From a virus, in IMG/VR virus record IMGVR_UViG_3300018423_000031, positions 1-34,017 of that record: a stretch of DNA of 34,017 nucleotides. One strand, given 5' to 3'. Below are positions 3,298 to 25,254 of this stretch, piece after piece. Both the position numbers and the translations under genes were made by a program. Under the pieces are notes generated by a model. The model did no database searches. It was not told where the DNA came from and saw nothing but the letters and a program-made list of their open reading frames with translations. Positions within the stretch are counted from its first letter, which is position 1, and every line of letters starts with the position of its first letter.

Positions 3298-6200
3298 TGG
3301 CAGATAGAGTATATCCAAAGAGCCAACTTCCAATTAGAAGAACTTCTGACTTTCTTCCGAATGTCTTTAGATCCGACACCAATGATAAGTTCTTATCAGG
3401 TGTTGTTGATCCTTTGGTACAACCGGGCGTAGTTGAAAAACTTTCCGGTTATGTTGGTAGAAGGTTTGGTAAGACCTATAAGGGCAACGACATTTATCTT
3501 GACAGTGATAACACCCTAAGAAGTAGGTATCAACTTGAGCCCGGCATAACCATTGAAAAGAATGATCAAGTTGAAAAATTTTATGACTACCTTGATTTAA
3601 AAAACATGCTTTCATTCTTCGGCAATAGCATCGAGGATGATAGCAAGACAACCAATCAGGAACATTACACATGGAATCCACCTATTGATTGGGATAAGTT
3701 TATAAACTATAGAGAATACTTTTGGGTTCCTTCAGGACCTCCATCAGTTGCAGTATATGGACAGGCACAAACAGTAACAAGTACCTACAAGGTTAACACT
3801 GGTATTGCGTCGACGTGGGTGTTTACACCAGACGGAGCAACAAACAATCCAGATATTAAATTATACAGAGGACAGACCTACAAGTTCAAGGTTAACAGTC
3901 CTAATGAAAGTTTCTATTTAAGAACAAATTATGACACAGGATCACTAAACTATAATCCTTTGATTACATATTTTCCAGGACAACTTGCGGTCTATGATGG
4001 CAAGTTGTGGAGAGCAAAGGTAGAAATTTCTCCCGCGGATGGTAGCACAATTGATGTTGATAGCCAAGATTGGGAATTAGTAGATTCTAACGCATCTGTT
4101 GATACATTAATATATTCAAGTGGTGTAACAAACAATGGAGTTAGGGTAGGGGAATTAACTTTTGAAGTTCCTCAAGATTCTCCAGATGTGTTATACTATC
4201 AGAGTGATATTGATCCTAACAGATTAGGAAGATTTATAATTGCTGATATAGACAGCAATACCTTCCTTGATGTTGAAAATGAAATTATCGGTAAAGAAAA
4301 TTACAACAGTTCAAATGGTGTAGAATTTAGTAATGGTATGATAGTTGAATTTCTTGGAACGGTCACACCAGCAGTTTATGCAGAAAATAAATGGCTTGTT
4401 GAGGGAGTGGGCGACGAGATTAAACTAATCAAATTCTCTGATCTTATTCCACCTACACTGACTGGAGAAACACCAGAAGTGTTATTTGATAACGAAGGAT
4501 TTGATACACAACCGTTCGATGATGCTACTCAATATCCTGCCGTAAAAGATTATATATTAATAAACAGGGCCAGTGGTGATTCTAATCCTTGGTCAAGATA
4601 TAATAGATGGTTCCATAGATCAGTTCTTGAATATGCATTTAGATCAAGAGGTGACGACTTTGATGCTACTGAAGCATCAAGAGCCAAGCGACCGATTATA
4701 GAATTTAATAAAAATATTCAACTTTTTAATCATGGTCGTAATGCAAAACAAACTGTTGACTATGTTGATGATTATACAACAGATATTTTTTCAACCATTG
4801 AAGGTAGTAAGGGTTATAACATTGACGGCGAATTTTTATTTGAAGGAGCAAGAGTTCTTGTTGTTGCTGACACAGACAGTTTAGCAAATAATAAAATCTA
4901 TACCGTAAAATTTATAACACACAATAACAATAGACAGATAACTTTACAAGAAGCAACTGATTCAGTTTCAGCATTCAATGATTGTGTTCTTGTAAGAAGA
5001 GGAACAAGGAATGCTGGAAAAATGTTCCACTTCAATGGAACTTCTTGGGTACGAAGCCAAGAAAAACTAACTATAAACCAATCTCCACTTTTTGAAGCAT
5101 ATGATGAAAATGGAGTTTCGTTATCCGATCCAGAAACTTATCCAGTTAGTTCATTCTTAGGAACAGAAATTTTAAAATATAAAATTGGTAACAGTGTTGC
5201 TGACAAAGAACTTGGTTTTAGTTTATCTTATTTGAATATTGATAATGTTGGTGACATACAGTTTGAATGGACTTGGGATAAGGAAACATTTACATATAAC
5301 TTGGACAATCAAGACCAAACAAAGAATGTTAATACAGCATTTTATTTTGTTAATGGAAACTATGCTAACGGATGGGCAAAACTTGATAACACATACATTC
5401 AACCAATAATTGATTCAGTTGTATTAACACAGGACACAAATGAAGTTGTGTTCAACACTATTGACTGGAATAATTTTACTGATAATACAAAAATAATTTT
5501 TTATAAAAATGGTGAAAAAGTATTTTCAACTTATACAAGGACAAAAAATACTTTTGTATTTGATGAAACATTTGCAGAGAAAGATGTTATCTCACTAAAA
5601 ATAGTAGATAGCAATATTGTTCCTGATCAAGGATATTATGAAATACCTATCGGCATTGAGAGAAATCCATTAAACCAAGGACTGGGAGATTTTACATTAG
5701 GTCAGGCAGTTGATCATGTTAGAAGTGGTCTTGAATTTATAGATTCGTTTACTGGAGAATTTGTTCCAGGAAATTCAAATTTAAGAGATTTATCTGGTTG
5801 GCAATTGCACGCCAAGAGATTTATTAAACATGCCGGCATAGCAGCAGCCAGCGTGGCAGTATTGGTTGATAAACAATCTAATATAATTAAATCCTTACAA
5901 TATTCTTCCAAGCAATATTCTTCATTTAAGGAAAATTTCCTTAAGAAAGCACTTGAATTAGAGTTTGAAGAATCAATTCCTGATTTTGTTGATAGGATTA
6001 TTGAGGATTTAACCAAGACAAAAACAATTGATAGTCCGTTCTCTGATTCGGATATGATAGGTACTGGCGCATTTAATGGGGTGGAATACACAGTTGAAGA
6101 TCCAGGAATTGTTACCTTTACTCTTTCTGAAAAATTCGATCTAAGCAAATTAAGCAGAAAGGCAGTTTATGTTTACCTGAATGGTGCACAGTTATTACAC

Positions 6201-8921
6201 GAAAAGGATTATACATTTAATTCTGCATTTGGATTTGTAACCATCACCAGACAGTTAAGCGTGGGTGATAAGATTGAAATTAGAGAATACATTTCTACTG
6301 CATTTTCTCATATTCCACCAACTCCAGCAGCCATGGGATTATACAAGAAATATACTCCTATGAAGTTTACGGATGATACCTATCGCCAACCAAGAGAAGT
6401 AATTCAAGGTCATGATGGAAGTATCACAGTGTCGTACGAAGACTACAGAGACGATCTTCTGTTAGAACTTGAATATAGAATTTACAATAATATAAAAAAT
6501 AATTATGATCCACAGGTATTTGATGTTGATGAAATTCTTGGTGGATACTATGGAAATGCAAACTTTACCAAGGATGAATTTGATAACATCATCAATCAAC
6601 AATTTCTTAGATGGGTAGCAAATACAAATCTTGAATACACAACTAATTCTTACTTCATAGAAAACGAACCATTCACTTATACCTATAGTAATATGACTGA
6701 TCCTGCGGGAACAGAAAACTTACCAGGTTATTGGAGAGGAGTGTACAAGTACTTCTATGATACTGATAGACCACATCGCTGTCCTTGGGAATGTTTAGGA
6801 TTTTCAGAAAAACCTACTTGGTGGGAAGAGGAATACGGTCCTGCTCCATACACCAGTGGTAACTTGATACTTTGGGAAGATATTAGAGACGGTATTATCA
6901 GACAGGGGCCTCGTGCTGGAAGATATGATAGATATGCTCGAACTTCGATAATGAATCATCTTCCGGTTAACAGCGACGGAGAGTTGGTAAATCCTCTTGA
7001 TAGTGGATTAGCAAAGAACTTTACTCTTGTTAATAATAGAGGTAGTTTTAAACTTGGAGATATTTCACCCACTGAGTATGCGTGGAGATCAAGTTCGGAA
7101 GAACCATATGCAATGATAATTGCATTGTGTTTATTGAAACCTTTTGATTTTATTATTTCTAATTTTGATAGAGCAAAAACAACAAGAAATATTCTTGATC
7201 AAATTGTTGATATTGAAACAAAAACATTCATCACTCCGAATGAATTAAAATTACCTGTTGCTGGTACAAATCTTGTTTCAGGATTATCCTTTTATGTAAC
7301 AGCATATCTAAAATCAAATGGTGTTTCAGTAACACAGGCACAGGATATAATTGATGGATTACAAGTAAGACTAACATCAAGATTAAGTGGATTCGTTGAC
7401 AAGGAGCAACAAAAATATATACTTGACAGCAAAAATCCAAGTTCTTCAAATTCAAGCATTTTTGTTCCACAGGAAAATTACGATATTATCTTTAATGTAA
7501 GTGCACCGATAGGTAGCGTTACATACAGTGGTGTTATAATTGAAAAAACGCAGACTGGTTGGGCATTAAATGGATATGATGATACGTATCCTTACTTTAA
7601 CTATTACACTGCTGTCAACAATCAAAAAGATCCAGTAATGAGCGTTGGCGGAATCAGTCAGTCGTTCACGGAGTGGCAACCACAAACAAAATATAATAAT
7701 GGAGCAATCGTTGAATATAGAAACACTTATTATAGAGCAAAACAATCTCTTGAAGGTGTTGACGAATTTGATGGTAACGATTGGGTTAAATTACCTGAAC
7801 TACCATTAATTGATGCAATAACAGCACAGCGAAGAAGAAATTTTAATAAAACGGTTGTTAGAAAATTAAGTTATGGTGAAACATTACCAACGGTTCAAGC
7901 CGTGGTTGATTTCCTATTAGGATATCAGGCTTATTTGATCGACCAAGGAATTATTTTTGAAAATTACGATCCAGAAAATCAAGTCGTACAGGACTTTGTC
8001 ACAGCCTGCAAGGAATTTATGTTCTGGACCAAACATAACTGGGCAATTGGTTCTTTATTAACAATTTCTCCTGGTGCAGTACAAATTAGAATAGCAGTTC
8101 CTGTTGGTGTTGCTGATAATATTCTTGACGGCTTTTATGATTATAATGTTCTTAAAAGTGACGGAACTCCTATACAGGTTAAGAACATCAATGTAAAACG
8201 TGATTTCCAAAACGTAACGGTGTCCACGGTTGACACCGATGACGGAATATATTATCTAAAAATTAATTTTGTATTAAAAGAACACGTAACAGTATTCAAA
8301 GATAAGACAGTCTTTAATGATATAATTTTTGACAAACCAACTGGGTATCGTCAAGAAAGAATTAAAACACAAGGATTCAGAACCATCGATTGGGATGGCG
8401 ATTATACATCTCCTGGATTCCTTTTTGATAATGTTAAGATTGAAAGTTGGTCACCGTTCACTGATTACAGACTTGGTGACATCATACAGTACAAGACAAA
8501 ATACTTTACCAGCAGATACAATCATACAAGCGATAAAGAATTTAATGATGATAATTGGACGATACTTGACTCCAATCCAGAAAAACAACTTATTGCTAAC
8601 TTTGATTATCGAGTAAATCAAATAGAAGATTATTTTAATGTTGGTTCTCAAGGACTTGGAAAGAGCCAAAGAGATCTTGCCAGACATACAATAGGATATC
8701 AGCAGAGACAATATCTACAGTATCTTGCTGAGGATGAAGTGACTCAGTACAAATTGTATCAGGGCTTTATCAGAGAAAAAGGCACTAATAATTCGATTAC
8801 TAAACTGTTTAATAAGATTAGTAAGTCTGGACAATCAAGTGTATCACTTGAAGAAGAGTGGGCATTTAGAGTTGGACAGTTTGGTGGAATAGATCAAACC
8901 AATGTTTATGAAATTAAATAG
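3297..8921 (+). CDS. Giant baseplate/tail structural protein, N-terminal piece (1874 aa)
   Basis: This is the first part of what looks like one ~4,670-codon structural gene. Its position directly after gp6 matches T4 gene 7, but I cannot show gp7 homology. Visible content: a Trp/Tyr-rich conserved block at about residues 1143-1190 ('GYWRGVYKYFYDTD', 'EKPTWWEEEYGPAPY'), which I recall from large cyanophage virion proteins; a beta-module with 'VYVYLNGAQLL' at about 927-1000; and three short modules resembling CBM5/12 at about 224-264, 1464-1500 and 1722-1758 (pattern YxxGxxxxYxxxxYxA...W). The ATG lies inside the TAATG shared with gp6. The frame stops at TAG 8919-8921. Protein-like sequence continues at once in the -1 register, so this end is probably not the natural C terminus. 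No signal peptide or membrane segment is seen. Confidence 0.8.
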   Translation: MADRVYPKSQLPIRRTSDFLPNVFRSDTNDKFLSGVVDPLVQPGVVEKLSGYVGRRFGKTYKGNDIYLDSDNTLRSRYQLEPGITIEKNDQVEKFYDYLDLKNMLSFFGNSIEDDSKTTNQEHYTWNPPIDWDKFINYREYFWVPSGPPSVAVYGQAQTVTSTYKVNTGIASTWVFTPDGATNNPDIKLYRGQTYKFKVNSPNESFYLRTNYDTGSLNYNPLITYFPGQLAVYDGKLWRAKVEISPADGSTIDVDSQDWELVDSNASVDTLIYSSGVTNNGVRVGELTFEVPQDSPDVLYYQSDIDPNRLGRFIIADIDSNTFLDVENEIIGKENYNSSNGVEFSNGMIVEFLGTVTPAVYAENKWLVEGVGDEIKLIKFSDLIPPTLTGETPEVLFDNEGFDTQPFDDATQYPAVKDYILINRASGDSNPWSRYNRWFHRSVLEYAFRSRGDDFDATEASRAKRPIIEFNKNIQLFNHGRNAKQTVDYVDDYTTDIFSTIEGSKGYNIDGEFLFEGARVLVVADTDSLANNKIYTVKFITHNNNRQITLQEATDSVSAFNDCVLVRRGTRNAGKMFHFNGTSWVRSQEKLTINQSPLFEAYDENGVSLSDPETYPVSSFLGTEILKYKIGNSVADKELGFSLSYLNIDNVGDIQFEWTWDKETFTYNLDNQDQTKNVNTAFYFVNGNYANGWAKLDNTYIQPIIDSVVLTQDTNEVVFNTIDWNNFTDNTKIIFYKNGEKVFSTYTRTKNTFVFDETFAEKDVISLKIVDSNIVPDQGYYEIPIGIERNPLNQGLGDFTLGQAVDHVRSGLEFIDSFTGEFVPGNSNLRDLSGWQLHAKRFIKHAGIAAASVAVLVDKQSNIIKSLQYSSKQYSSFKENFLKKALELEFEESIPDFVDRIIEDLTKTKTIDSPFSDSDMIGTGAFNGVEYTVEDPGIVTFTLSEKFDLSKLSRKAVYVYLNGAQLLHEKDYTFNSAFGFVTITRQLSVGDKIEIREYISTAFSHIPPTPAAMGLYKKYTPMKFTDDTYRQPREVIQGHDGSITVSYEDYRDDLLLELEYRIYNNIKNNYDPQVFDVDEILGGYYGNANFTKDEFDNIINQQFLRWVANTNLEYTTNSYFIENEPFTYTYSNMTDPAGTENLPGYWRGVYKYFYDTDRPHRCPWECLGFSEKPTWWEEEYGPAPYTSGNLILWEDIRDGIIRQGPRAGRYDRYARTSIMNHLPVNSDGELVNPLDSGLAKNFTLVNNRGSFKLGDISPTEYAWRSSSEEPYAMIIALCLLKPFDFIISNFDRAKTTRNILDQIVDIETKTFITPNELKLPVAGTNLVSGLSFYVTAYLKSNGVSVTQAQDIIDGLQVRLTSRLSGFVDKEQQKYILDSKNPSSSNSSIFVPQENYDIIFNVSAPIGSVTYSGVIIEKTQTGWALNGYDDTYPYFNYYTAVNNQKDPVMSVGGISQSFTEWQPQTKYNNGAIVEYRNTYYRAKQSLEGVDEFDGNDWVKLPELPLIDAITAQRRRNFNKTVVRKLSYGETLPTVQAVVDFLLGYQAYLIDQGIIFENYDPENQVVQDFVTACKEFMFWTKHNWAIGSLLTISPGAVQIRIAVPVGVADNILDGFYDYNVLKSDGTPIQVKNINVKRDFQNVTVSTVDTDDGIYYLKINFVLKEHVTVFKDKTVFNDIIFDKPTGYRQERIKTQGFRTIDWDGDYTSPGFLFDNVKIESWSPFTDYRLGDIIQYKTKYFTSRYNHTSDKEFNDDNWTILDSNPEKQLIANFDYRVNQIEDYFNVGSQGLGKSQRDLARHTIGYQQRQYLQYLAEDEVTQYKLYQGFIREKGTNNSITKLFNKISKSGQSSVSLEEEWAFRVGQFGGIDQTNVYEIK

Positions 8922-11791
8922 ATACCGAAGAATTTGTTCTTAATCCTCAGCCTATATTAGTAGTTGATTCCAAACCTAACCAACCACTTGATCGTTATTA
9001 CAGAGTTAATAAGTCTGATTTTTATTATGCACCAGTTCCTTACACTACTGAAATATTACCAACAACAACTGATCAATTGGTAACAAGAACAGCAGGATAT
9101 GTTAAGACAGGTCAAACGGCACACGTTGTTAAGAACAAGAGCGATATATTAAACATCAACATTGAAGAGTTTAATGAAAATGATCATGTCTGGATTACTT
9201 TCAATAATTTATCGTGGACTGTGTTAAGAGGAAATGTAGTTTATGATCTTCCAGTTGACAACATATCTTCGAAAGGAACAATAGTTACAGTTACCTTTGG
9301 TAAAAAACACAATCTTGTTCCGGGCGATATAATCGGTATTACTAACATAGAAGGAATAATAGGTTTCCATGAAATAGTGGAATTAACACAGACTATTGAA
9401 GGAACAACACTGAATGAGAATTTATCAATTCAATTTATTGTAGATCCTGCTCCAGAAATATCCTTTGATGCGAGTTCGTTAACTTTTCCTATACTTTTCA
9501 CAGAAGCAAGGTTTGCAGATTATGATAGTTTACAACCAGAACACGTTGCATTACTAAGAAACAATTCAAAATTGTTTGTCGATAAGAATGCTGACGGGTT
9601 ATGGGAAGTTGTTCAAAAGAAAAAACAATATCAATCTAAGAAAATAACAAATTATGGCATAACTGATCCTGTCAAGACAGGTTACAAGGTTGAATATGCT
9701 TCAAATTATAAACAGGTAATTGCTTCGATTCCAGGAAGTGGATACGTCAATGTCTACATTGAAACAAATCAAGGGTTGTCAGTTAGACAGATTCTTGAGC
9801 CACAAAGCGGATTAGAAACCACGGTTAATGGATCGTTTGGTTACGAACTTTCTTTAAGTCCTGATCAAAAATACTTGTTTGTTGGATCTCCACTTGCAAG
9901 TGGTGTTACATCAAATTATAAAGGATTGTTTAGTCCTTATGCAACATACGCTCCTGGAGACATCGTTCTTTATGCAGGAAATTTATGGAAATCATTAACA
10001 ACAAATGTTGGCGATGGAAGCACAATTGATTTAGAAAATAATGATTGGGAATTGACTAAAAATATTTCAGCACTATCATCGGGATCAGAAACAGGTCCTA
10101 CGCAACAGGGTGCTGTTTCTGTTTATGAATGGAATGCTCAGCAATGGAATTACGTAGAAAGTTTTGTAAGTCCAAGACCAAATGAATCAGAAAAATTTGG
10201 ATCTAAGATTGTTTGTGGTAAGACAGCAAACGGTTATACACTTGCTATTAGTGCTCCAGGATCAATCAATAACAAAGGAAGGGTCTATCTTTACACACAA
10301 AACACAGACGGTGAGTGGGAATTGATAGAAGATGAAAACTACAAAGGAATTTATAATTCTGGTGTTGCATTTACAGGATCAATCAATGACAATGTATTGA
10401 CAGTTACCGACGTAGCATATGGTAAGATAGTGGAAGGTGCAATACTTGAGGGTTCAGGAATTACTGCCGGAACAAAAGTGGTTTCACAAACACAAGGAAT
10501 TAAAGGTAGCACAGGAACTTATACAGTTGTTCCTTCATACGATGCCGTGGGATCCAATCCAGCGCCAATCGGAAGCACAGCAATAACAGGAACATATTAT
10601 TATCCTACGGGTTCAATAGTTTATGTTGATGGTTTTCTTTGGAAAGCAACTGCAAACAATTATAGCGATGGAAGCACGATTAGCATACAGAGTGCTGATT
10701 GGTTAAAGGTTGATGAAATAGCAACACAATCATCATTACCACAAAGCATGAGCATAGAGGATGACGGATCAACACTTTCCGCTGGAATATTAAGTGATAC
10801 ACAGATTTCAGAATTAATTAAGGATGGTGATCGATTTGGAATGAGCCTATCAATGAACTATGATGGTTCGGTATTAGTAGTAGGAGCACCATATGCTGAT
10901 GGTCAATTCTTTACCAACTTTAAAGGACCATGGGATCCTAACTATGAATACGTAGAAGGTGATGTTGTAAAATACCAAGGCGGCTATCATAAGTTAATTA
11001 ATGCTGGTCCTACAGCAGTCGGCATTGATAGTACAATTAGAAGTTATAACCAAGAACCCGATGCTGGTCTTCCTTGGTCGAATGTTGGCGACAGCAGTGC
11101 TGAAGCAACAGGAAAAATCTTTATCTATAGAAAAGACATCAACGGTTTTTACAAATTAGATCAAACTATCACAACTGAAGGTCTTGAATTTATAAGTGAC
11201 ATTGATCCATCTGAAACAATAAGCACAGGAGATCAGTTTGGTTATGACATGGACATTGATTATTCTGGTAATACATTAGTAGTTTCGAGCCCTAAGGCAG
11301 ATAGGAATTTCCAAAATCAAGGAAGTGCTTACATCTTTAAATATGAAAGCGATAGTTCAGAATTACAATTTAGATTAAAACAAAAAATTGAAAGTTATGA
11401 CATTTATCCTAATGAGTATTTTGGCCAGAGCGTATGCATAACACCTAATACAGAAAAATTAGTAGTAGGAGCAAACAATAGTCCTTACTCATTACCAACT
11501 CGATTTGATTCTTCAACAACAACATTTGATGACGGAGTGACTTCATTCAAGAGTTACGATGGTTTTTCTGGTGCGGTTTATGTGTTTGAAAGAAAAGACG
11601 AAACATATTTCTTAGCAGAAAAACTTGATGAGGATCTAAGCCTTAATGAATCATTTGGTTTTAGTCTTGTTTGTGATACAGACACAATAGTTGTAGGATC
11701 ACCAGATTATATAGAACCTGCCCCCCATGGTCCAGGACTTGCATTTGAAGGATCTAAAGTGGGTAACGTAAGACTGTTCAAAAAACAGTAA
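8918..11791 (+). CDS. Giant structural protein, middle piece: FG-GAP-like beta-propeller
   Basis: This piece is in the -1 register relative to the preceding piece. It is open from 8918, just past a TAA at 8915-8917. No ATG exists in this frame before about 10748. The first start-like codon is TTG at 9077, without a ribosome site, and clear coding sequence ('FVLNPQPILVVDSKPNQPLD') precedes it, so it is not an independent gene. From about 9678 it holds seven repeats of the type 'FG.S...s.dG..lvVgaP....G.vyvY', the FG-GAP/integrin-alpha beta-propeller pattern. Examples are 'RFGMSLSMNYDGSVLVVGAP', 'QFGYDMDIDYSGNTLVVSSP' and 'GAVYVFERKDETYFLAEKL'. CBM5/12-like modules sit in loops at about 9943-10055, 10595-10700 and 10938-11090. 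A phage-typical beta-module lies at about 10366-10560 ('GSGITAGTKV', 'TGTYTVVPS'). It ends at an in-frame TAA, and the same frame continues beyond. The probable role is virion surface binding (inference). Confidence 0.7.
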   Translation: MDTEEFVLNPQPILVVDSKPNQPLDRYYRVNKSDFYYAPVPYTTEILPTTTDQLVTRTAGYVKTGQTAHVVKNKSDILNINIEEFNENDHVWITFNNLSWTVLRGNVVYDLPVDNISSKGTIVTVTFGKKHNLVPGDIIGITNIEGIIGFHEIVELTQTIEGTTLNENLSIQFIVDPAPEISFDASSLTFPILFTEARFADYDSLQPEHVALLRNNSKLFVDKNADGLWEVVQKKKQYQSKKITNYGITDPVKTGYKVEYASNYKQVIASIPGSGYVNVYIETNQGLSVRQILEPQSGLETTVNGSFGYELSLSPDQKYLFVGSPLASGVTSNYKGLFSPYATYAPGDIVLYAGNLWKSLTTNVGDGSTIDLENNDWELTKNISALSSGSETGPTQQGAVSVYEWNAQQWNYVESFVSPRPNESEKFGSKIVCGKTANGYTLAISAPGSINNKGRVYLYTQNTDGEWELIEDENYKGIYNSGVAFTGSINDNVLTVTDVAYGKIVEGAILEGSGITAGTKVVSQTQGIKGSTGTYTVVPSYDAVGSNPAPIGSTAITGTYYYPTGSIVYVDGFLWKATANNYSDGSTISIQSADWLKVDEIATQSSLPQSMSIEDDGSTLSAGILSDTQISELIKDGDRFGMSLSMNYDGSVLVVGAPYADGQFFTNFKGPWDPNYEYVEGDVVKYQGGYHKLINAGPTAVGIDSTIRSYNQEPDAGLPWSNVGDSSAEATGKIFIYRKDINGFYKLDQTITTEGLEFISDIDPSETISTGDQFGYDMDIDYSGNTLVVSSPKADRNFQNQGSAYIFKYESDSSELQFRLKQKIESYDIYPNEYFGQSVCITPNTEKLVVGANNSPYSLPTRFDSSTTTFDDGVTSFKSYDGFSGAVYVFERKDETYFLAEKLDEDLSLNESFGFSLVCDTDTIVVGSPDYIEPAPHGPGLAFEGSKVGNVRLFKKQ

Positions 11792-14700
11792 GGAATCAAT
11801 TCATTAGAACTTATCGGTCAGGAAGAGCCTACAGTTGATATTAGAGATCTAAAACGACTAACATTGTATTCTGATTCATCAACAAATAAGATACAGGATA
11901 TCGAAATAATAGATCCAGCCAAAATGAGAATATTAGCAGCGGCTGAAAGAGAAATAACATTTAAAACATTGTATGATCCTGCTGTTTATTCTGTGGGAAA
12001 TCCAGATAATCAAATTGTTGATAGCGATACAGCATGGACGACAAAGAACGTTGGAAAACTTTGGTGGAACATTTCCACAGTCAAATGGGTATACTATGAA
12101 CAGGGAGATACTGCTTATAGAACGGCGAATTGGGGTAAACTTGCAGAAGGTTCCACGATTGAAGTTTCTGAATGGGTTGAAACAAAATTACTTCCAAGCG
12201 AATGGGCAGTTCTTGCAGATACCACTGAAGGATTAAAGAATGGCATTTCTGGAACACCACTTTATGATGATTCAGTTTATTCTATAAAAGAATTATTTAA
12301 TGTTAACACTGGTGAATTAACTGAAACATTATATTACTATTGGGTTAAATCTAAGGTAACCGTTCCGAACATAAGTGGAAGGACAATATCAGCAGCCAAC
12401 GTTGGAGTATTAATTGCTGATCCTAATTCACTTGGAAATACATTTACAGCATTAATAGCAAAAGACAAATTTTTATTCTACAATTATACATCTTTGGTGA
12501 ATGAAAATTCTACAATATTAAACTTTGAATTTTATAAAAATTCTCCTATCAGAAATGAAGTTCATAATGAATATCAATTGATCACGGAAGATGTTGCAGA
12601 CAGTGTACCAACGCCTAAACTTGAAAGAAAGATGATAGACTCTTTGGTTGGTTATGATATACAAGGTAACAGAGTTCCTGATCCTGATTTACCAGAAAAA
12701 CAAAAGTATGGAATCAAGTTCAGACCAAGACAGAGTATGTTTACCGATAGAAGAGGCATACTAAAAATTATTATTGAAAATGCAAACAAGGTTTTACAGA
12801 AACAGCCGTTTGCTAATATAATTAGTTTTGAAAATTTAAATTTAAAAGACGAACAGCCAAGTAACTTATTAAGACTTTACGACACAAGCGTTTCTAATTA
12901 TATCGATCTTGAAACAGTTGGTACGGTTAGAACTAAGGCTGGCCAGTTATCAGTTAATATCATAGACGATGAAATATCTTCCATAGACGTTGTTGATCCA
13001 GGATTCGGATACAAAGTTGCTCCTAATGTAGAATTTGAAGGAGACGGTGAAGGCGCTGTTGCCACAACAACTATAGACAATCAAGGAAGAATTACTTCGG
13101 TAACCGTTAACAATCCTGGTAGAAATTACAAAACTGCCATTGCCAAAGTAAGAAGATTTAGTGTTCTTGTTGAAACTGATTCAACTTCTCAAAACTATTG
13201 GTCGATATATGCTTGGGATGACATAAGACAAACTTTCTTTAGAAGTGCTTCGCAGGCCTTTGATACAACAAAATATTGGTCATACATAGATTGGTGGAAA
13301 GAAGGTTACAGCGAAACAACAAGAATTATTAAGGAAATTCCATCGGTAGCAGAACTTCCTGCCAATGAAGAAAGTATTTCTGTGGGAGATTTGATAAGAT
13401 TCAAAGAATATGGTTCGGGTGATTGGGCAGTATTCAAGAAAATATCCGATACATCCACAAGCATACTTTCTAATTATGAATTAGTTGGTAGAAAAAATGG
13501 AACTATCAAACTTGAAAATACTTTATATGATGTTGGAACAACAGGAATAGGTTATGATAATGTTACTTCCTTTGATACCAATTTCTATGATAGAGAGCCT
13601 ATCAACGAATTAAGAAATATTTTTACAGCATTAAAACAAGATGTATTTGTCGGAGACTATACAGTTGAATGGAATAAATTATTCTTCAGTTGTGTTAGAT
13701 ATGTATTACACGAACAAGTTTATGTTGATTGGGCATTTAAAACCAGTTTCTTAAATGCTACGCATACTGTTGGAGAGTTGTTACAAACTCCAAACTATAA
13801 GAACGATAGTCTTGATCAATATTTGAATTATATTGACGAAGTAAAACCTTACAGAACAACAATTAGAGAGTACGTGAGTAAGTATGATAAGACTGACTAT
13901 CAATATGCGGGAAGCACAGACTTTGACCTTCCACCTGCATACTTACAATCAAGAGGAAAGATCACAAGAATAACAGAAATAGATCCAGAGATAACAGAAT
14001 ATCCATACAAGTGGTGGTTAGATAATAAGGGATTCTCAGTAACGGAAGTTTTAATATCAAATCCAGGAAGTGGTTATACCAGCGTTCCTCGTGTTGTAAT
14101 TGAGGGAGATGGTACTGGAGCAAAAGGACAGGCTTATGTTTCAAACGGAACAGTATCAGGTGTAGTAATTACCAACCCAGGATCGGGTTATACAGTAACA
14201 CCTACAATTGCATTGGTTGGTGGTAATGGAAGTTCCACAGATAAAGCAAAAGCAGTTGCGGTGCTTGGCGATACAAAAGCGAGAGTGTTTAATCTTGCTA
14301 TGAAGTTTGATAGAATTACCAAAGAAGGATTGTATTCATTCACAGACTTTGAACAAACATTTACGGCAACTGGCACAACTTCTGTCTTCGAATTAAAATA
14401 TGCTCCAACAAGAGACAAGTCTAAGATACAAATTATTAAAAATGGAGAAATTGTTCTTAATAGCGAATACTCCATAACAATCTACAGATCAAATGACGAC
14501 GAGTTTAAGATTCTTAAAGGAAAAGTTGTGTTCAATGAAACACCAACTGCCGGTGATATAATAGAAATAGAATACGAGAAGAATGATGAACTTCTTGATG
14601 CAGTTAATAGAATCAATAAACTTTATAACCCTGTATCTGGAATGAAAGGAAATGACCTTGATCAGTTAATGACTGGTATTGACTTTGGTGGTGTTCAAGT

Positions 14701-17302
14701 CCAAGGAACAACATTTGATGTAACTGGTGGTTGGGACGCACTTCCTTGGTTTACTGACAGTTGGGATAGTGTCGAAGCAGCAAGTGATTATTATCATGTT
14801 TGTGATGGTAGCACAGAATATGTTGAACTACCTTATGTTCCTACAGAAGGGCAAAGAATTAATATCTATCTAAAGCGTGCTGGAGAAGAAGTTTTACCAA
14901 CTATAGATAATTTACAGTATGGTCCTGGAGTAAAATCTCCACCAATTAGAAGAATTGATTCTCCGTACTTCCTTGACGGAAATGATTCTTCCACTGGTCC
15001 TAATCCAAATGCAGAAATGCCAACATTTGTTGGAGATGGTTCAACAAAAACTGTTGAGATAGGAATATACATTACAACTAATGATGGTGATATATTAATT
15101 TTCCGTCCTGAAACCAGTGATGGTTCAGTTACAATTACTGATGATAATCTTGTTGATACAAATATCTCAGGTGGTAGTTTAAGTATAATGGAAGGAGCCT
15201 ACGCAACAGCAACAGGAAAAACCGCAGAAGAAATTAATTTAGAAGGCGGTAGATTCATAGGACCTGAACAGGTTCCAGCAACAGAGGAAAATATTCCAGG
15301 ACAGGTTCTTGATAGTTTAAGTATCAAAGTATACACGGCTAAACAGGACGGAGTCGCTCCATTAAGTTCGAGAGTTGCAATATCAGATGGTTCAACAACA
15401 GTTTATGATATAGGTCAAACAATAACTGAAAATAAATCAGTCATAGTTTATATTGATGGATTAAAAACATCAGCATACACAGTTAATGTTCAAGACAATA
15501 CAGTTGAATTTGCAAGTGCACCTGCATCAAACTCTAAGATTGAGATTTTAAGTATAGGTATTGGTGGTGTTACAATTCTTGATTATCAAGAATTTAAAGC
15601 AGACGGTGATACAGGATTATTCTTAACAAATGCAAATTATGATGATACTGCAAATATTTTTGTATCAGTTAATGGTATTCAGGCAGATGTTGGTTATATT
15701 AACAGCAGTGATGTGTTGGATACTCCTAACAGAACTTTAGTACAGTTTGGAGAAAAACCATCATTCAATTCTGTAATTAAAATTGTGGTACTTGGTTCTT
15801 CAACTGATGTTGATAGTTCATCATTACCTCTTGTTCGAGTTAATCAACAAACAATAATCCATGATGGTAGTACAAGAAACTATGATCTTGATAATTTTGT
15901 TTCCTTAGAAAGAGCAAGTGCAAAATCAAGCATGATTGTTGAAGTCAATGATGTTAAACTAAAAGGAGTTGATACTACATATTTCGAATATGATGGTGTG
16001 ACAAATAATTTTACACTTGGACAGGATCCTTTAGAAGCGGCGGGTGCTATTCTTTCAAGAAATCTTCGAGTGTTTATTAATAATGAATTAAAAACATTCG
16101 TTCAGGATTATGTTTATAATGGTTCTACCAAGGTGCTTACTTTAACAGCAGGTGTAGCACAGATAGGTGACATCATTAAGATTGAAAACGATCTAAGATC
16201 CGAGTATAACATTGTTGGTGGAAATCTTGTTATCGGTAGTGGTGTTACACTTAATCCAGGTGATGAAATAAATGTAACTTGGTTTAGTGAATATCCTTCC
16301 ATGGATGTTTATTCTGATAGAACCATTGGCGGCAAAGTTTATTTTGAATTGCCATTTAAACCAATATCTGCAAGTTATGTTTGGGTTTACAAAAATGGAG
16401 TTAAATTAATTCAGGATGTTGATTATCAAGTTAAGGTAGATAGAGGAATTATGTACCTAACAGATCCTACAACAACAAGTGATGTTATAACAATTACTAT
16501 TTTCGGTACATCTGTTTTTAGAAATCCAAGTGCTTATGAAATTAACAAGGATATGTTAAACATTTATAGATTTAATAGATATTCCAAGGATGCTAATTTA
16601 ACTCTTGCCAAGAATCTAAATTATTACGATCTTACAATTGAAGTAACTGACGGAAGCATGCTTTCCGAACCAATTAGACAGAAAAATATACCTGGAGTAA
16701 TCTTAATTAATAATGAAAGAATTGAGTATTTGCAAAAAGATGGAAATATACTATCTCAACTCAGAAGAGGAAGCCAAGGTACTTCAATCAAGGAACTGCA
16801 TTCAGTAGGATCATACTTGATTGATGTTAGCCAATCAGAATATATTCCATACCAGGAAGAAAATGAAAGAATGGATTTCGTTAGTGATGGAAGTTCACTA
16901 TTGATTGGTCCTTTGGGTTACGTTCCAGCACAAAGTACAGATGCAAATTGGTATGCTGGTACAATACCACAAGGATATGGAAGATGCGATACTGTGGAAG
17001 TATTCGCAGCAGGAAGACGTTTGAGAAAGGTTTCTTTAACAGTTTTTGATGAAACACTTGGCGCAGTTAGTCCAGATGCTGATAGACAGATTGAAGCAGA
17101 ATTTTCAGTTGATGGAACGAGCCAAAACATCAGATTAACCGAAACTTTACCAGCGGGAACACGTATTACGGTAATTAAAAAGGTAGGAAAAACATGGTAT
17201 GATAGGGGCGAAACTACAGCATCTACAGGTGTTACATTGCTTGAAAATACAACACCAATAAGTAAATTCATTGCTGCAAAGTCAACCAGATTACCTGAAT
17301 AA
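11792..17302 (+). CDS. Giant structural protein, C-terminal piece (beta-module repeats)
   Basis: This is in the same frame as the preceding piece, immediately after TAA 11789-11791, with protein-like sequence from the first codon ('GINSLELIGQEEPTVDIRDL'). The first start-like codon is TTG 11864 and the first ATG is 11924. Neither has a ribosome site, so this is a continuation rather than a separate gene. Content: two regions of 'NPGSGY...P.v...GdG.GA' repeats (about 12973-13150 and 14044-14230). These are followed by a long series of beta-sandwich-like modules of the form DGST...y.l...v.VyvNG......Y......tv.f...P..gd.I.I (about 14350-16520). A basic, Trp-containing end follows ('KKVGKTWYDRGETT'). 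Such modules are common in phage fibres and baseplate appendages. It ends 28 nt before the next gene, with a putative late promoter overlapping the stop. Confidence 0.72.
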   Translation, partial: GINSLELIGQEEPTVDIRDLKRLTLYSDSSTNKIQDIEIIDPAKMRILAAAEREITFKTLYDPAVYSVGNPDNQIVDSDTAWTTKNVGKLWWNISTVKWVYYEQGDTAYRTANWGKLAEGSTIEVSEWVETKLLPSEWAVLADTTEGLKNGISGTPLYDDSVYSIKELFNVNTGELTETLYYYWVKSKVTVPNISGRTISAANVGVLIADPNSLGNTFTALIAKDKFLFYNYTSLVNENSTILNFEFYKNSPIRNEVHNEYQLITEDVADSVPTPKLERKMIDSLVGYDIQGNRVPDPDLPEKQKYGIKFRPRQSMFTDRRGILKIIIENANKVLQKQPFANIISFENLNLKDEQPSNLLRLYDTSVSNYIDLETVGTVRTKAGQLSVNIIDDEISSIDVVDPGFGYKVAPNVEFEGDGEGAVATTTIDNQGRITSVTVNNPGRNYKTAIAKVRRFSVLVETDSTSQNYWSIYAWDDIRQTFFRSASQAFDTTKYWSYIDWWKEGYSETTRIIKEIPSVAELPANEESISVGDLIRFKEYGSGDWAVFKKISDTSTSILSNYELVGRKNGTIKLENTLYDVGTTGIGYDNVTSFDTNFYDREPINELRNIFTALKQDVFVGDYTVEWNKLFFSCVRYVLHEQVYVDWAFKTSFLNATHTVGELLQTPNYKNDSLDQYLNYIDEVKPYRTTIREYVSKYDKTDYQYAGSTDFDLPPAYLQSRGKITRITEIDPEITEYPYKWWLDNKGFSVTEVLISNPGSGYTSVPRVVIEGDGTGAKGQAYVSNGTVSGVVITNPGSGYTVTPTIALVGGNGSSTDKAKAVAVLGDTKARVFNLAMKFDRITKEGLYSFTDFEQTFTATGTTSVFELKYAPTRDKSKIQIIKNGEIVLNSEYSITIYRSNDDEFKILKGKVVFNETPTAGDIIEIEYEKNDELLDAVNRINKLYNPVSGMKGNDLDQLMTGIDFGGVQVQGTTFDVTGGWDALPWFTDSWDSVEAASDYYHVCDGSTEYVELPYVPTEGQRINIYLKRAGEEVLPTIDNLQYGPGVKSPPIRRIDSPYFLDGNDSSTGPNPNAEMPTFVGDGSTKTVEIGIYITTNDGDILIFRPETSDGSVTITDDNLVDTNISGGSLSIMEGAYATATGKTAEEINLEGGRFIGPEQVPATEENIPGQVLDSLSIKVYTAKQDGVAPLSSRVAISDGSTTVYDIGQTITENKSVIVYIDGLKTSAYTVNVQDNTVEFASAPASNSKIEILSIGIGGVTILDYQEFKADGDTGLFLTNANYDDTANIFVSVNGIQADVGYINSSDVLDTPNRTLVQFGEKPSFNSVIKIVVLGSSTDVDSSSLPLVRVNQQTIIHDGSTRNYDLDNFVSLERASAKSSMIVEVNDVKLKGVDTTYFEYDGVTNNFTLGQDPLEAAGAILSRNLRVFINNELKTFVQDYVYNGSTKVLTLTAGVAQIGDIIKIENDLRSEYNIVGGNLVIGSGVTLNPGDEINVTWFSEYPSMDVYSDRTIGGKVYFELPFKPISASYVWVYKNGVKLIQDVDYQVKVDRGIMYLTDPTTTSDVITITIFGTSVFRNPSAYEINKDMLNIYRFNRYSKDANLTLAKNLNYYDLTIEVTDGSMLSEPIRQKNIPGVILINNERIEYLQKDGNILSQLRRGSQGTSIKELHSVGSYLIDVSQSEYIPYQEENERMDFVSDGSSLLIGPLGYVPAQSTDANWYAGTIPQGYGRCDTVEVFAAGRRLRKVSLTVFDETLGAVSPDADRQIEAEFSVDGTSQNIRLTETLPAGTRITVIKKVGKTWYDRGETTASTGVTLLENTTPISKFIAAKSTRLPE

Positions 17303-17305
17303 ATA
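17298..17305 (+). promoter_or_regulatory. Putative T4-type late promoter (AATAAATA)
   Basis: AATAAATA overlaps the stop codon of the giant gene. It differs at one base from the T4 late-promoter core TATAAATA, which is read by gp55-type sigma factors. Transcription would begin about 6-7 nt downstream, near 17312. That would leave the ATG at 17310 outside the transcript and favour the start at 17331. Confidence 0.45.
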
Positions 17306-17330
17306 CACTATGAATAACAAAGAGAAAGAT

Positions 17331-17978
17331 ATGCCAGTGAACAATAATACTACAAACGAATCCAAGAAACCTGTGGTAAATGAGCAGGGCGGATTCCATT
17401 TTGAAGGACACATAAAGATTTTTGACCCTGAAACTGGAGAAGTTTTTCAGGATAAACGCAATGCAATTCACTATGAAAATATGAGCGTTGCAATGGTAAA
17501 CAGTTTATCAAACCAAGGTTTGGGAACAATTTATCAAATGGTATTTGGCTCCGGCGGAACTACTGTAGATCCTACAGGATTAATTACATATCTTACTCCG
17601 AACACCGTCGGAATCAATTCAAGTTTATACAATCAAACATACGCAAAGATTATTGATCAAAATGCAACTGGCAATAACGATCCTGTTAGAAACAAAATGG
17701 AAATTAGGCACATCAGTGGAGCAACATACAGTGATATAGTAATTTCATGTTTGCTTGATTATGGAGAGCCACAGGATCAGGAAGCATTTGATAACAGCGT
17801 TAACATGGATGGAAACTTTGTCTTTGATGAACTTGGATTAAAATCATATAGTTCAACAGGAGATGGAAAACTTTTAACACACGTGGTATTCCATCCGGTG
17901 CAGAAATCACTAAACAGATTATTACAGATTGATTATACAATTAGAGTTCAAAGTTTAACAGGTTTTAACGAGGGGTAA
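17331..17978 (+). CDS. Virion structural protein, unknown role (215 aa)
   Basis: I do not recognise a named family. The N-terminal third reads 'FHFEGHIKIFDPETGEVFQD' then 'KRNAIHYENMSVAMVNSL', a pattern I associate with cyanophage-type virion proteins located between baseplate and fibre genes. The C terminus is beta-rich ('LLTHVVFHPVQKSLNRLLQI', ending in 'DYTIRVQSLTGFNEG'). The ATG at 17331 is chosen because a weak purine-rich stretch (AAGAGAAAG) precedes it and because the putative late promoter at 17298 would start transcription just downstream of the alternative ATG at 17310. Coding potential extends back to 17271 but would overlap the previous gene. No membrane segment is seen. The next gene starts 3 nt after the stop with its own GAGGGG site, so the two are probably co-expressed. 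It could be a small baseplate, adaptor or fibre-attachment protein. Confidence 0.75.
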   Translation: MPVNNNTTNESKKPVVNEQGGFHFEGHIKIFDPETGEVFQDKRNAIHYENMSVAMVNSLSNQGLGTIYQMVFGSGGTTVDPTGLITYLTPNTVGINSSLYNQTYAKIIDQNATGNNDPVRNKMEIRHISGATYSDIVISCLLDYGEPQDQEAFDNSVNMDGNFVFDELGLKSYSSTGDGKLLTHVVFHPVQKSLNRLLQIDYTIRVQSLTGFNEG

Positions 17979-17981
17979 TAG

Positions 17982-20132
17982 ATGCCATATATTGTAAATT
18001 TTACAGATAGCGAAAACAAATCACCTATTACCGTTTTCGATAACACATCAAACCAAGATACGAGTTTGACGTTTCCAGGAAGAAACGTAGTTGGATATGG
18101 ACAGATTATTGCTGAAAACTTTCTTTCTCTATTAGAAAACTTTGCAAGTCCGAATGCACCAGTCAATCCAACAGAAGGACAACTTTGGTATGATACGACT
18201 AATAACGTTCTTCAGTTATGGGACAACACTAACTGGAAGGCAGCATCAAACATTCAAAAATCACCAACTGAGCCAAGTGTTGAAAATTCCAAGATAGGAG
18301 AACTTTGGGTTGATACTACCAATCAACAATTAAGAATCTTTACAGGAACAAGATGGTTGCTTGTTGGACCAAGTGAGAGTGCAATTGATGGTAAGAGATA
18401 CGGTCCAGCAGTTGAAAGAATTACAGACAGTGATAACAACAATAAAAATGTTTTAATTTTTTACATTGCAGATACTCCTGTTATTATTATTTCAAAAGAT
18501 ACATTTACACCGAAGATTGACATTACTGGTTTTGATATTATTAGAGCAGGACTTAATGTTGCGATTCCAGCCAACTCAGATGAAGAATTAGAATTTGCTT
18601 CAATCTTCCTTGGCGGGGAATTACCTAAGATGCTTGGTACCGCTGCAAATGCTGACGCATTAAACGTTGGTGGTGTTGAAGTTAGTGCAGGAAAATTTTT
18701 AAGAAGTGATACGATTAATACAACTGAATTTGGAATTAACGTTAGAAACAATGCAGGTATCACTGTAGGTATTGACGGTAACTTCAATATTATTACAAGT
18801 AGCACGGCTGCAAAACTTTATAACTCGGCAGCAGGTAGTGCTCTTGATTTACAAATTAATAGAAACGGTGTTCCAAGCACAATCCTAAGAGTTCTTGACA
18901 ATAAGGTTGGTATTAACAAAACAACACCAGAAGAAGCACTTGACGTTGATGGTAATTTTGCGCTTTCAGGTAATTTGTTAATTAACAACACTGATGAAGC
19001 AACAAATTTAAGTACGGGTTCTGCTGTATTCAAGGGCGGTATTTCCGTAACAAAAAATATTAGAATCGGAACAACGCTAAATGTTGAAGGAACCGTAACT
19101 ACTACAAATATTACCCCAGCAGGTAACGAATTATATGATCTTGGATCCACGTCAAGAAAATGGAATAACTTCTTTGCTAAAAAAATTATAGCAGATGAAA
19201 TTGTTGGAACAATTAACGGTAGTATTACTGGTAATGCTAACACGGCAACAAACCTTAAAACAGTTTCGACTTTCCAGTTACAGGGAGATGTAGTTTCTAA
19301 CTCTGTTAGATTTGATGGACAGGTTGATGGATCAACCAAATTATTTTCAACACAATTAACTGCAAACATCATTAAGGATAAACCAGCACCATCGCCAAAT
19401 AGATCAAAACTTGACGATTTTGTTTTAACATACAGGGCGTCGGCTGAAACTGGTGGATCCAGCGGATTATTAAAACAGACCCGAGATACGTTTGTCGGAG
19501 ACCTTGGTATTCCTATAGGAGCAATTTTACCTTATTCAGGAACCACTGCTCCATATGGTTTCCTATTGTGTGATGGTGGTGAAGTTGAGATAGCAAAATT
19601 TCCTTTACTATATGATGTGATTGGAACGAACTACAATGGAACAGCAACACTTAATGGAACGGGAACATTTAGGGTTCCGGACTTGAGAGGTAGATTTCCT
19701 CTTGGTAAACACAACATGGATAACAACATTGACGTTCCTACAGCAGCAGGTGGATTTACAGATAACGGAGGTGGTAACCCATCACCGGCAAGGGTTGAAG
19801 GTACTGAAGCAACAACACTCGCAGCATCCAGTGGTTCAAGCACAACAAGCCTAACTCTTGGAAACGTTCCTGAACACTCTCATAACATGCAGAATGAAGG
19901 CGAACAATTTTATGCTGTTAGGGTAACAACAGATCCTGCAGAAGGAATACAGATTTCAAACAATGGACCAACAGCCGCTGGTGAGGCAGTTTATCTCCCA
20001 GATTCCGGACCTGTTAAAAAGCCAAGCGTAGATTTTACATTGGGTGCACCTTTTGGTATCATGAACCCATTCTTAACATTAAATTATATTATTAGATCTG
20101 GACCACCAGCATTTACAACAGTAGGATCATAA
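17982..20132 (+). CDS. Tail fibre protein with phage tail-collar domain (716 aa)
   Basis: This is the first of four fibre paralogues. The N-terminal ~135 residues form the shared module: 'IIAENFLSLLENFASPNAPV' followed by two copies of GxLWxDTTNxxLxxxxxxxW at about residues 66-86 and 106-126. The middle is low-complexity, beta-rich fibre shaft sequence ('ATNLKTVSTFQLQGDVV'). At about residues 508-580 it has a clear tail-collar domain, as in the T4 gp12 family: 'IGAILPYSGTTAPYGFLLCD', then 'GTFRVPDLRGRFPLGKH'. A 'VPEHSHNM' segment at about 628 and an 'NPFLTLNYIIRSG' ending are also collar-family features; histidines there often bind metal in gp12-like trimers. The start ATG has a GAGGGG ribosome site 6 nt upstream. 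It probably contributes to receptor contact or short-fibre function. Confidence 0.88.
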   Translation: MPYIVNFTDSENKSPITVFDNTSNQDTSLTFPGRNVVGYGQIIAENFLSLLENFASPNAPVNPTEGQLWYDTTNNVLQLWDNTNWKAASNIQKSPTEPSVENSKIGELWVDTTNQQLRIFTGTRWLLVGPSESAIDGKRYGPAVERITDSDNNNKNVLIFYIADTPVIIISKDTFTPKIDITGFDIIRAGLNVAIPANSDEELEFASIFLGGELPKMLGTAANADALNVGGVEVSAGKFLRSDTINTTEFGINVRNNAGITVGIDGNFNIITSSTAAKLYNSAAGSALDLQINRNGVPSTILRVLDNKVGINKTTPEEALDVDGNFALSGNLLINNTDEATNLSTGSAVFKGGISVTKNIRIGTTLNVEGTVTTTNITPAGNELYDLGSTSRKWNNFFAKKIIADEIVGTINGSITGNANTATNLKTVSTFQLQGDVVSNSVRFDGQVDGSTKLFSTQLTANIIKDKPAPSPNRSKLDDFVLTYRASAETGGSSGLLKQTRDTFVGDLGIPIGAILPYSGTTAPYGFLLCDGGEVEIAKFPLLYDVIGTNYNGTATLNGTGTFRVPDLRGRFPLGKHNMDNNIDVPTAAGGFTDNGGGNPSPARVEGTEATTLAASSGSSTTSLTLGNVPEHSHNMQNEGEQFYAVRVTTDPAEGIQISNNGPTAAGEAVYLPDSGPVKKPSVDFTLGAPFGIMNPFLTLNYIIRSGPPAFTTVGS

Positions 20133-20133
20133 G

Positions 20134-22005
20134 ATGGCATATCAGATAAACAAAACAGATGGAACAGTAGTAGCAACGGTCGCTGACGGTCAGGTTGATA
20201 ATATTTCAACTGATATTACTCTTATAGGTAAAAACTATAGTGGGTTTGGCGAAGCACTTAACGAAAATTTTGTAAAACTACTTGAAAATTTTTCAAGCAC
20301 CAGCCGTCCTGAACATCCTATCAAAGGCCAGATATGGTTTGATGCTACTGAAAACAAATTAAAAGTATACAGCGGAACGGCTTTTGTTCCTGTTAGTTCA
20401 GCAACTATATCAAGCACACAGCCAAGCACACTTGGTGTTGGCGATCTTTGGTTTAATGATGTTGCCAAGCAGTTATATTTCTTCGATGGAACAAATACTA
20501 TTCTACTTGGACCTGCTTATTCAGAATCACAGTCATTGAGTGGTTTAAGAGTATCAAGCATACTTGATACATTGAACCAAACACGTGTTATCACGAGTTT
20601 ATACAACAATGGAATACTGTTAGGAATATTTGCAAAAGATTCATTTACTCCTAAGAATGCTATTGAAGGATTCAGTGGGGATATCATTCCAGGATTTAAT
20701 CAGGGAACTCTATCAGGATTAAAATTTAACGTAACAACAACCAATTCAGAAAAACTTGGTAACGTAACGGCAATTACATATGCAAGAAAAGACACATCAA
20801 ACTCATTCGAAGGACAGATAAGAGTTAATTCGGATCTTGGTATAGTATTTGGTGCGGGTGACCAAGGAAACTTCACTGTTGATGGTGCTGGTAACGTAAC
20901 ATTTTCAAACTCTGCTTCCGATAAGAAACTTACACTTAACGTGAGAAAGGGTATTGCACAGGAAGATGCAATAATTATTAATTCAGATTCAAGAAGAGTT
21001 GATGTTTATCCAGGATACAGCGATAGTGAATTAACAGTTGGTGGTGATGTTACAGTGGAAGGTGTCGTAACCATCAAGGGCAATCTTGTTATTAACGACG
21101 GCGATGTATTGGTTCAGAGAGAAACTTCACTTGAAATTGAAAACAAATATTTAATAATGGCCCAACAGGGAGATAGTGCTTCCAACAAAGATGAACTTGC
21201 TGACGGTGGTGGTATAATTCTAAAGGGTGCAACGGATCACGTGCTTTTATGGAGCCAGAATGGCTTCCCCGCTTCACCAGAATATCCGGCACTTGCCGCA
21301 GGAGCATGGACCAGTTCGGAACACGTTAACCTTGCTTCAGGCAAAGCATTCAAGATTAACGGAGTAACCGTTCTTGACGGAACATCATTGGGTACGGGAA
21401 TTACGAGCATTCCGGGTGTTACGTCCTTTGGTACGCAGAACGTTATCAACATTGGACCAGGAGCACCACCGGTTGCTGAGATGAGATTGCAAAATCATAG
21501 AATTTCCACTCTAAGCAGTAACTATGACATAGAATTAGAACCAAACGGAACTGGAAATATCTCATTAATAGGATCACCCAAGATAACTGGCATGGCAGAT
21601 CCTACATCCGCACAGGATGCTGCTACCAAGGAATACGTTGATGATGTCGCTGAATCAAGAAGCCTTGCATTTTCAATGGACTTAACTGACGGTAAACCAA
21701 ACAGTTACATTGCGGGAACGGTTCTTGCTGCATTGGCACCCGTTGCTGAATATAGAAATGGTACCATTGCAAGAATTTTATGTACGCAGTTGTCAAACTC
21801 AACTACGAGTCTTGACATTGATCCTCTGTTAAGTCAGAGTACGGCAGAATTTAACACTCCATCGGGAACAGCATATGCGGTAACTGATGTTGCGTCAGCG
21901 GTTGCAACCGTTAGCGCACCAAGCATTACAACAACAAGAATTATCAAGACATTCCAGTTACTTGCTGGTGCTTGGACATATGTATCAGAAACGGTGTTAC
22001 CATAA
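20134..22005 (+). CDS. Tail fibre paralogue (623 aa)
   Basis: This is the second paralogue. It opens 'MAYQINKTDGTVVATV' and carries the shared N-terminal module: 'GFGEALNENFVKLLENFSST' and 'GQIWFDATENKLKVYSGTAF', with a second GDLWFND copy. The middle is beta-rich with Gly/Asn/Thr repeats. Near the C terminus is 'ADPTSAQDAATKEYVDDVAE', the ATKEYVD motif typical of phage trimeric fibre stalks before a distal domain. The last ~100 residues have no recognisable domain and may be the distal binding tip. ATG 20134 follows the previous stop by 1 nt, with a TAGGA ribosome site at 20122-20126 inside the preceding gene, so translation is coupled. It lacks the collar domain of its upstream neighbour, so the paralogues share the attachment end but differ distally. 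Confidence 0.85.
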   Translation: MAYQINKTDGTVVATVADGQVDNISTDITLIGKNYSGFGEALNENFVKLLENFSSTSRPEHPIKGQIWFDATENKLKVYSGTAFVPVSSATISSTQPSTLGVGDLWFNDVAKQLYFFDGTNTILLGPAYSESQSLSGLRVSSILDTLNQTRVITSLYNNGILLGIFAKDSFTPKNAIEGFSGDIIPGFNQGTLSGLKFNVTTTNSEKLGNVTAITYARKDTSNSFEGQIRVNSDLGIVFGAGDQGNFTVDGAGNVTFSNSASDKKLTLNVRKGIAQEDAIIINSDSRRVDVYPGYSDSELTVGGDVTVEGVVTIKGNLVINDGDVLVQRETSLEIENKYLIMAQQGDSASNKDELADGGGIILKGATDHVLLWSQNGFPASPEYPALAAGAWTSSEHVNLASGKAFKINGVTVLDGTSLGTGITSIPGVTSFGTQNVINIGPGAPPVAEMRLQNHRISTLSSNYDIELEPNGTGNISLIGSPKITGMADPTSAQDAATKEYVDDVAESRSLAFSMDLTDGKPNSYIAGTVLAALAPVAEYRNGTIARILCTQLSNSTTSLDIDPLLSQSTAEFNTPSGTAYAVTDVASAVATVSAPSITTTRIIKTFQLLAGAWTYVSETVLP

Positions 22006-22016
22006 GGAGTAAGGAG
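22004..22016 (+). promoter_or_regulatory. Tandem ribosome binding sites (AAGGAGT-AAGGAGC)
   Basis: AAGGAG occurs twice, at 22004-22009 (overlapping the previous TAA) and 22011-22016. It precedes the ATG at 22026 at 16 and 9 nt spacing; the nearer copy is the better placed. Such duplication is unusual in this window, where most fibre genes rely on weak sites or overlap. Confidence 0.6.
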
Positions 22017-22025
22017 CGATAATAG

Positions 22026-25218: not shown

Positions 25219-25254
25219 TTTTGGTAAATATAACAGTAATATAGGAAAAAATAC

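Follow-up and report, generated by a model that had tools for sequence, protein, structure and literature searches.

A predicted seven-bladed FG-GAP propeller with CBM5/12-like insertions in a giant baseplate-region protein of uncultured jumbo myophages

The closest described relatives of the protein considered here are members of phrog_10938, annotated 'virion structural protein' (PA5oct gp355, Atu_ph07 gp180, GAP32_230, SCTP-2 gp140 and Phosso XYS97451.1), each encoded by a single gene, 3,341-4,555 residues in length, located after or close to a gp6-like wedge gene. The same slot, directly after gp6, is taken in Synechococcus cyanophage S-MbCM6 by the gene for a virion structural protein of 7,022 aa (YP_007001806.1), which contains an FG-GAP_2 propeller (131.6 bits) together with a Laminin_G_3 lectin-type domain. 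Propellers of FG-GAP_2 type are also found in S-TIM5 gp54, Vibrio phage nt-1 ORF127, Phosso ORF108 and the Atu_ph07 'hemagglutinin'; phage virion proteins bearing an FG-GAP propeller can already be found in databases and are not new. Sinorhizobium phage Phosso ORF108 (3,693 aa; L102 288-11366) carries many FG-GAP blades along its length, enough for several propellers. The propeller of integrin alpha chains (alpha-L, 5e6u; alpha-M, 7usm) likewise comprises seven FG-GAP blades and accommodates an inserted domain (the alpha-I domain).

The sequence examined, IMG/VR virus record IMGVR_UViG_3300018423_000031, originates from a large bacterial virus, marine or freshwater, and its entire 34,017 bases are referred to as the window. 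Within it a giant gene appears as three ORFs (3297-8921, 8918-11791 and 11792-17302), and a seven-bladed beta-propeller of FG-GAP_2 type is encoded at 9668-11827. Both flanks of the propeller match phrog_10938 (E=5.8e-233 and 4.7e-82), and homologues of the flanks were identified in the jumbo myophages PA5oct, Atu_ph07, SCTP-2, Phosso, GAP32 and Vibrio phage 2.275.O, the N- and C-flanks of the phrog_10938 members named above being 24-31% identical to those of the window. These proteins differ at the propeller site itself, where the phrog_10938 members contain either short segments without FG-GAP (59-284 residues; PA5oct, SCTP-2 and GAP32, with 2.275.O also having a short segment) or a different repeat that spans ~1,180 residues (Atu_ph07 and Phosso). 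In S-MbCM6, by contrast, it is the propeller that is held in common: the flanks are not convincingly homologous and the propeller is without CBM insertions. The FG-GAP proteins of S-TIM5, nt-1, Phosso and Atu_ph07 are undecorated in the sequences compared and are separate from the giant protein.

None of the open papers searched joins FG-GAP, phage and baseplate, and a CBM-decorated propeller, together with its occurrence in 38 or more distinct jumbo-phage lineages from the environment, appears to be undescribed in them. The preliminary description of this DNA had regarded such a propeller as no standard T4 baseplate element; this is right in that T4 gp7 has no FG-GAP in Pfam, but too broad in that S-MbCM6 already has an FG-GAP propeller after gp6.

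The propeller and its predicted fold

FG-GAP_2 (PF14312) was detected in the middle ORF at 79.8 bits against a Pfam cut-off of 23 (E=1.7e-22), and in relatives at 51.8-100 bits, supporting the propeller family that had been proposed from the repeat pattern. An AlphaFold2 model, built from a 38-sequence alignment (A3), predicts seven successive four-stranded blades that close a ring, blade 1 included (pLDDT 81, pTM 0.77), and the blade starts in this model (Table 1) fall no more than 10 bases from the seven positions originally suggested. The top structural match located by VIA-align was integrin alpha-L (Z 28.1 over 356 residues, 2.8 A, 17% identity); since WD40 propellers gave a nearly equal score (Z 27), the fold match is to be read as 'seven-bladed propeller', with the FG-GAP profile providing the kind. 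Among viral models, Foldseek returned matches to FG-GAP proteins from both giant viruses and phages.

The individual repeats were subjected to a held-out test, in which a blade HMM was trained on six blades and the seventh sought in 38 relatives, with shuffles as control. Blades 2-7 were recovered in all 38 relatives, at median scores of 17.5-39 bits against shuffle maxima of 3.7-16, and blade 1 reached 2.3 bits in the same set, no better than the shuffles. Blade 1 is degenerate in sequence, and its place in the ring is a prediction of the structure model. The phage blades also differ from those of integrin alpha chains in that no DxDxDG calcium-binding loops were found in the blades of the 38 sequences (the only matches precede blade 1), as well as in the type and positions of their inserts.

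Table 1. Positions of the propeller, its insertions and the surrounding genes in the window
Feature	Position	Strand	Evidence and remarks
gp6-like baseplate wedge gene, directly upstream of giant gene	4-3297	+	phrog_10646, E=7.5e-283; phrog_219, E=1.3e-15
Giant virion structural protein gene	3297-17302	+	~4,670 residues when intact
Blade 1	9668-9805	+	Four strands in model; degenerate sequence
Blade 2, with module 1 in B-C loop	9827-10177	+	Model and held-out HMM
CBM5/12-like module 1	9914-10087	+	Blade 2 B-C loop; 38/38 relatives; PF02839 above cut-off for whole protein
Blade 3	10184-10327	+	Model and held-out HMM
Extra insert, ~75 residues, blade 3-4 linker, before module 2	10361-10585	+	Alignment A3; optional
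CBM5/12-like module 2	10583-10717	+	Blade 3-4 (D-A) linker; 37/38 relatives
Blade 4, with module 3 in B-C loop	10823-11179	+	Model and held-out HMM; PF14312 22.8 bits at 10823-10903
CBM5/12-like module 3	10907-11095	+	Blade 4 B-C loop; 37/38 relatives
Blade 5	11225-11398	+	PF14312 35.1 bits at 11222-11338; model and held-out HMM
Blade 6, with hairpin insert in B-C loop	11405-11632	+	PF14312 20.2 bits at 11378-11479; model and held-out HMM
Blade 7	11645-11827	+	Model and held-out HMM; last strand past in-frame TAA
Conserved 235-residue protein, same cluster, downstream	17271-17978	+	phrog_11259, E=1.5e-72; syntenic in relatives
Fibre/collar-like protein, downstream	17982-20132	+	phrog_9116; phrog_523, tail collar fiber

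Modules inserted in the propeller loops

The CBM5/12-like insertions were found where the preliminary description had placed them, and their identity is supported by profile, CBM_5_12 (PF02839) scoring 29.1 bits for the whole protein against a Pfam cut-off of 26.2 (E=1e-6); the likeness is partial, however, with most of the aligned positions falling in roughly the N-terminal half of the CBM profile. The best PF02839 stretch is module 3 (residues 671-687 of the middle ORF), and module 2 has the signature Y..G.IVY..G.LWKA..DGSTI..DW. Whilst the phage modules have the PF02839 profile in common with CBM5/12 of ChiA1 (1ed7), chitinase C (2d49) and the Vibrio chitin oligosaccharide deacetylases, they match the CBM5/12 signature in its first half and have GDGSTI..DW in place of the C-terminal half, and they are without the aromatic WW pair of the chitinase type, WW being present in only 2 of the 38 sequences. 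This pair forms the binding surface of chitinase CBM5/12.

Two sister modules lie outside the propeller in the same giant protein (residues ~1455-1505 and ~1713-1765) and have predicted folds resembling those of chitin deacetylase CBMs (45 residues superposed at 1.2 A). A model of the conserved core of the giant protein (P0001, residues 1000-1895) was poor (pLDDT 52), its confident parts matching CBM5/12 domains. The sister modules match small domains of the Milano baseplate receptor-binding complex (8fqc), the 7-7-1 tail fibre (9rkv) and the Pam1 tailspike (7eea), and also baseplate and cap proteins of contractile injection systems and the T4 capsid proteins gp23/gp24. Because these matches include both receptor-binding and structural proteins, the small CBM5/12-like fold is one that serves phages in both kinds of part alike.

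The decoration of the propeller varies among relatives. One of them (L007) has the bare seven blades plus module 1 only, indicating that the fold does not depend on modules 2 and 3. The extra insert in the blade 3-4 linker occurs in 10 of 38 relatives, with at least two unrelated types swapped, and no Pfam family matched the version at 10361-10585 in the window. The loop that holds a recurrent GTT[ND][FW] module differs from one phage to another, further inserts occupy the B6-C6 and B7-C7 loops among relatives, and a single 110-residue insert, present in 4 sequences, lies in a C-D loop, on the opposite face. In a sub-group (L085, L087, L088 and L090) three other loops of the propeller are also occupied, by inserts of 110, 55 and ~80 residues. 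Since the B-C and D-A loops lie on one and the same face in beta-propellers, nearly all of the decorations would be found on the side corresponding to the ligand-binding face of integrins.

Occupancy of the site and possible function

The propeller is conserved throughout the clade, being present in all 38 non-redundant IMG/VR relatives, one of which has a contig (L067) of 219 kb, consistent with a jumbo genome. Taken with the cultured homologues described above, sequence comparison indicates that the site is a variable one, filled by the propeller specifically in this lineage. Searches of cultured phages by tblastn, at the limits used, returned no match for the window propeller, the extra insert or one CBM module; with the undecorated L007 propeller as query, FG-GAP phage proteins were found. 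A scan of bacterial genomes located only distant FG-GAP proteins (Nannocystis and a deltaproteobacterial MAG).

Amongst relatives with 60-75% whole-protein identity, the N-flank is 66%, the blades 56% and the modules 55-60% identical, and at higher whole-protein identity this difference between flank and propeller or modules vanishes. Hypervariability was sought in the propeller and modules and none was found, divergence being only modestly faster than in the flanks, which speaks against a hypervariable receptor-binding tip. The giant protein overall is slightly more divergent than its four neighbours. On these sequence comparisons, the divergence data do not favour the propeller as a host-range determinant.

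Our preferred, though tentative, reading is that the propeller serves as a binding domain, specific to this lineage and displayed outwards, in a giant baseplate-region virion protein of jumbo (T4-like) myophages. The seven FG-GAP blades would constitute a rigid disc, and the B-C and D-A loop insertions would place the CBM5/12-like modules, along with other small ones, on a single face, corresponding to the ligand-binding face of integrin alpha chains. With several of these discs arranged around the baseplate, contact with the cell envelope, probably with its glycans, would be weak and multivalent and would take place beside the tail fibres. We infer single-face display from propeller topology, and virion exposure, the type of ligand and host contact are likewise conditional. 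In favour of a binding domain are the scores of FG-GAP_2 and CBM_5_12 above the Pfam cut-offs and the seven-bladed predicted fold, the location of the modules in the B2-C2, D3-A4 and B4-C4 loops with further inserts in B6-C6 and B7-C7, the swapping of the blade 3-4 insert and movement of the GTT[ND][FW] module between loops, the occurrence of CBM5/12-like folds in solved phage receptor-binding parts (those of Milano, 7-7-1 and Pam1), and the marking of the PA5oct homologue gp355 as ESI-MS/MS in its record. It is weakened by the missing WW pair and the modest divergence of propeller and modules, by the C-D loop insert on the opposite face, and because PA5oct and GAP32 manage without a propeller and CBM5/12-like modules occur elsewhere in the giant protein. 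Host recognition by the propeller, with the glycan binding that the preliminary description attached to it, is plausible, but the scarcity of WW and the near-flank rates of divergence did not bear it out.

It is also quite possible that the propeller is a protein-protein hub, holding the tail fibres or neighbouring wedges, and that the modules are packing domains in which sugar binding has been lost, for which T4 capsid proteins, with their chitin-binding-like insertion domains, provide a parallel. The absence of WW and a divergence near that of the structural flanks suit such a hub, as do the retention of modules 1-3 in 37-38 of 38 relatives, the synteny with downstream fibre genes and the matches of the small fold to gp23/gp24 and to injection-system baseplate and cap proteins. 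However, FG-GAP propellers and CBMs function for the most part in extracellular binding, and a structural hub sits less easily with optional inserts that are gained, lost and swapped, or with a propeller that is dispensable in the wider family. The fuller version of the binding-domain reading, namely that in an uncultured jumbo myophage clade the giant baseplate protein has acquired an integrin-like head for ligand binding, its ligand face bearing exchangeable glycan-binding modules, in parallel with the alpha-I integrins and working beside the tail fibres, we consider rather unlikely.

Gene identity and implications

That the giant gene belongs to the baseplate region, as the preliminary description had it, agrees with the gene order, since it follows immediately upon a gp6-like gene that matches the annotated baseplate wedge genes of Phosso, Atu_ph07 and BF (tblastn), and with the PA5oct homologue being marked as detected by mass spectrometry. 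Downstream, four fibre-like genes at 17982-27024 (+) have related N-terminal segments of ~75 residues (phrog_14394, phrog_15511), and this similarity in sequence suggests a common attachment domain. A tryptophan halogenase gene is located at 30200-31675 (+), downstream of the tail genes (phrog_2928, E=7.1e-100).

The same order is seen in T4, where gene 7 follows gene 6, and the giant gene holds this position in all annotated jumbo relatives, so that the giant protein might be gp7 and its propeller the orthologue of a gp7 domain diverged past recognition. We take T4 gp7 to contain a beta-propeller-like domain, a statement found in none of the papers searched. This identity is nevertheless improbable: hhalign comparison of the propeller and both flanks with seven gp7 sequences gave probabilities of 0.1-0.2%, the flank profiles have no PDB gp7 match, and the propeller is missing from most of the giant homologues.

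The gene is interrupted in the window by a frameshift near 8918 and an in-frame TAA at 11789-11791. Three IMG/VR contigs from other metagenomes (L001-L003), 99.96-99.97% identical to the window, are open through both sites; in L001 the giant gene reads without interruption for 4,670 codons, as it does, over 4,217-4,924 codons, in every complete relative. Both interruptions are therefore peculiar to the window contig, where they represent rare variants or errors of assembly, other contigs having the gene intact, and the three ORFs are, from these sequences, parts of a single gene. That there are three separate genes, or that programmed frameshifting and stop readthrough give alternative products, would account for the three ORFs of the window itself but is ruled out, to a very high degree of confidence, by these open relatives, from one of which (L001) the window differs over 21.8 kb by only 8 mismatches and 1 gap. 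'GYxxxPxV' repeats, common to many phage structural proteins, are present in the 3297-8921 and 11792-17302 pieces.

If the propeller does contact the host, large environmental phages would possess a receptor-binding device embedded in the baseplate, and not in a fibre, with loops that would offer binding modules a natural place of insertion. Should its role be structural, the propeller is still a marker for a jumbo-phage clade, and the analysis provides a first domain map of a ~4,670-residue protein hitherto annotated only as 'virion structural protein'.
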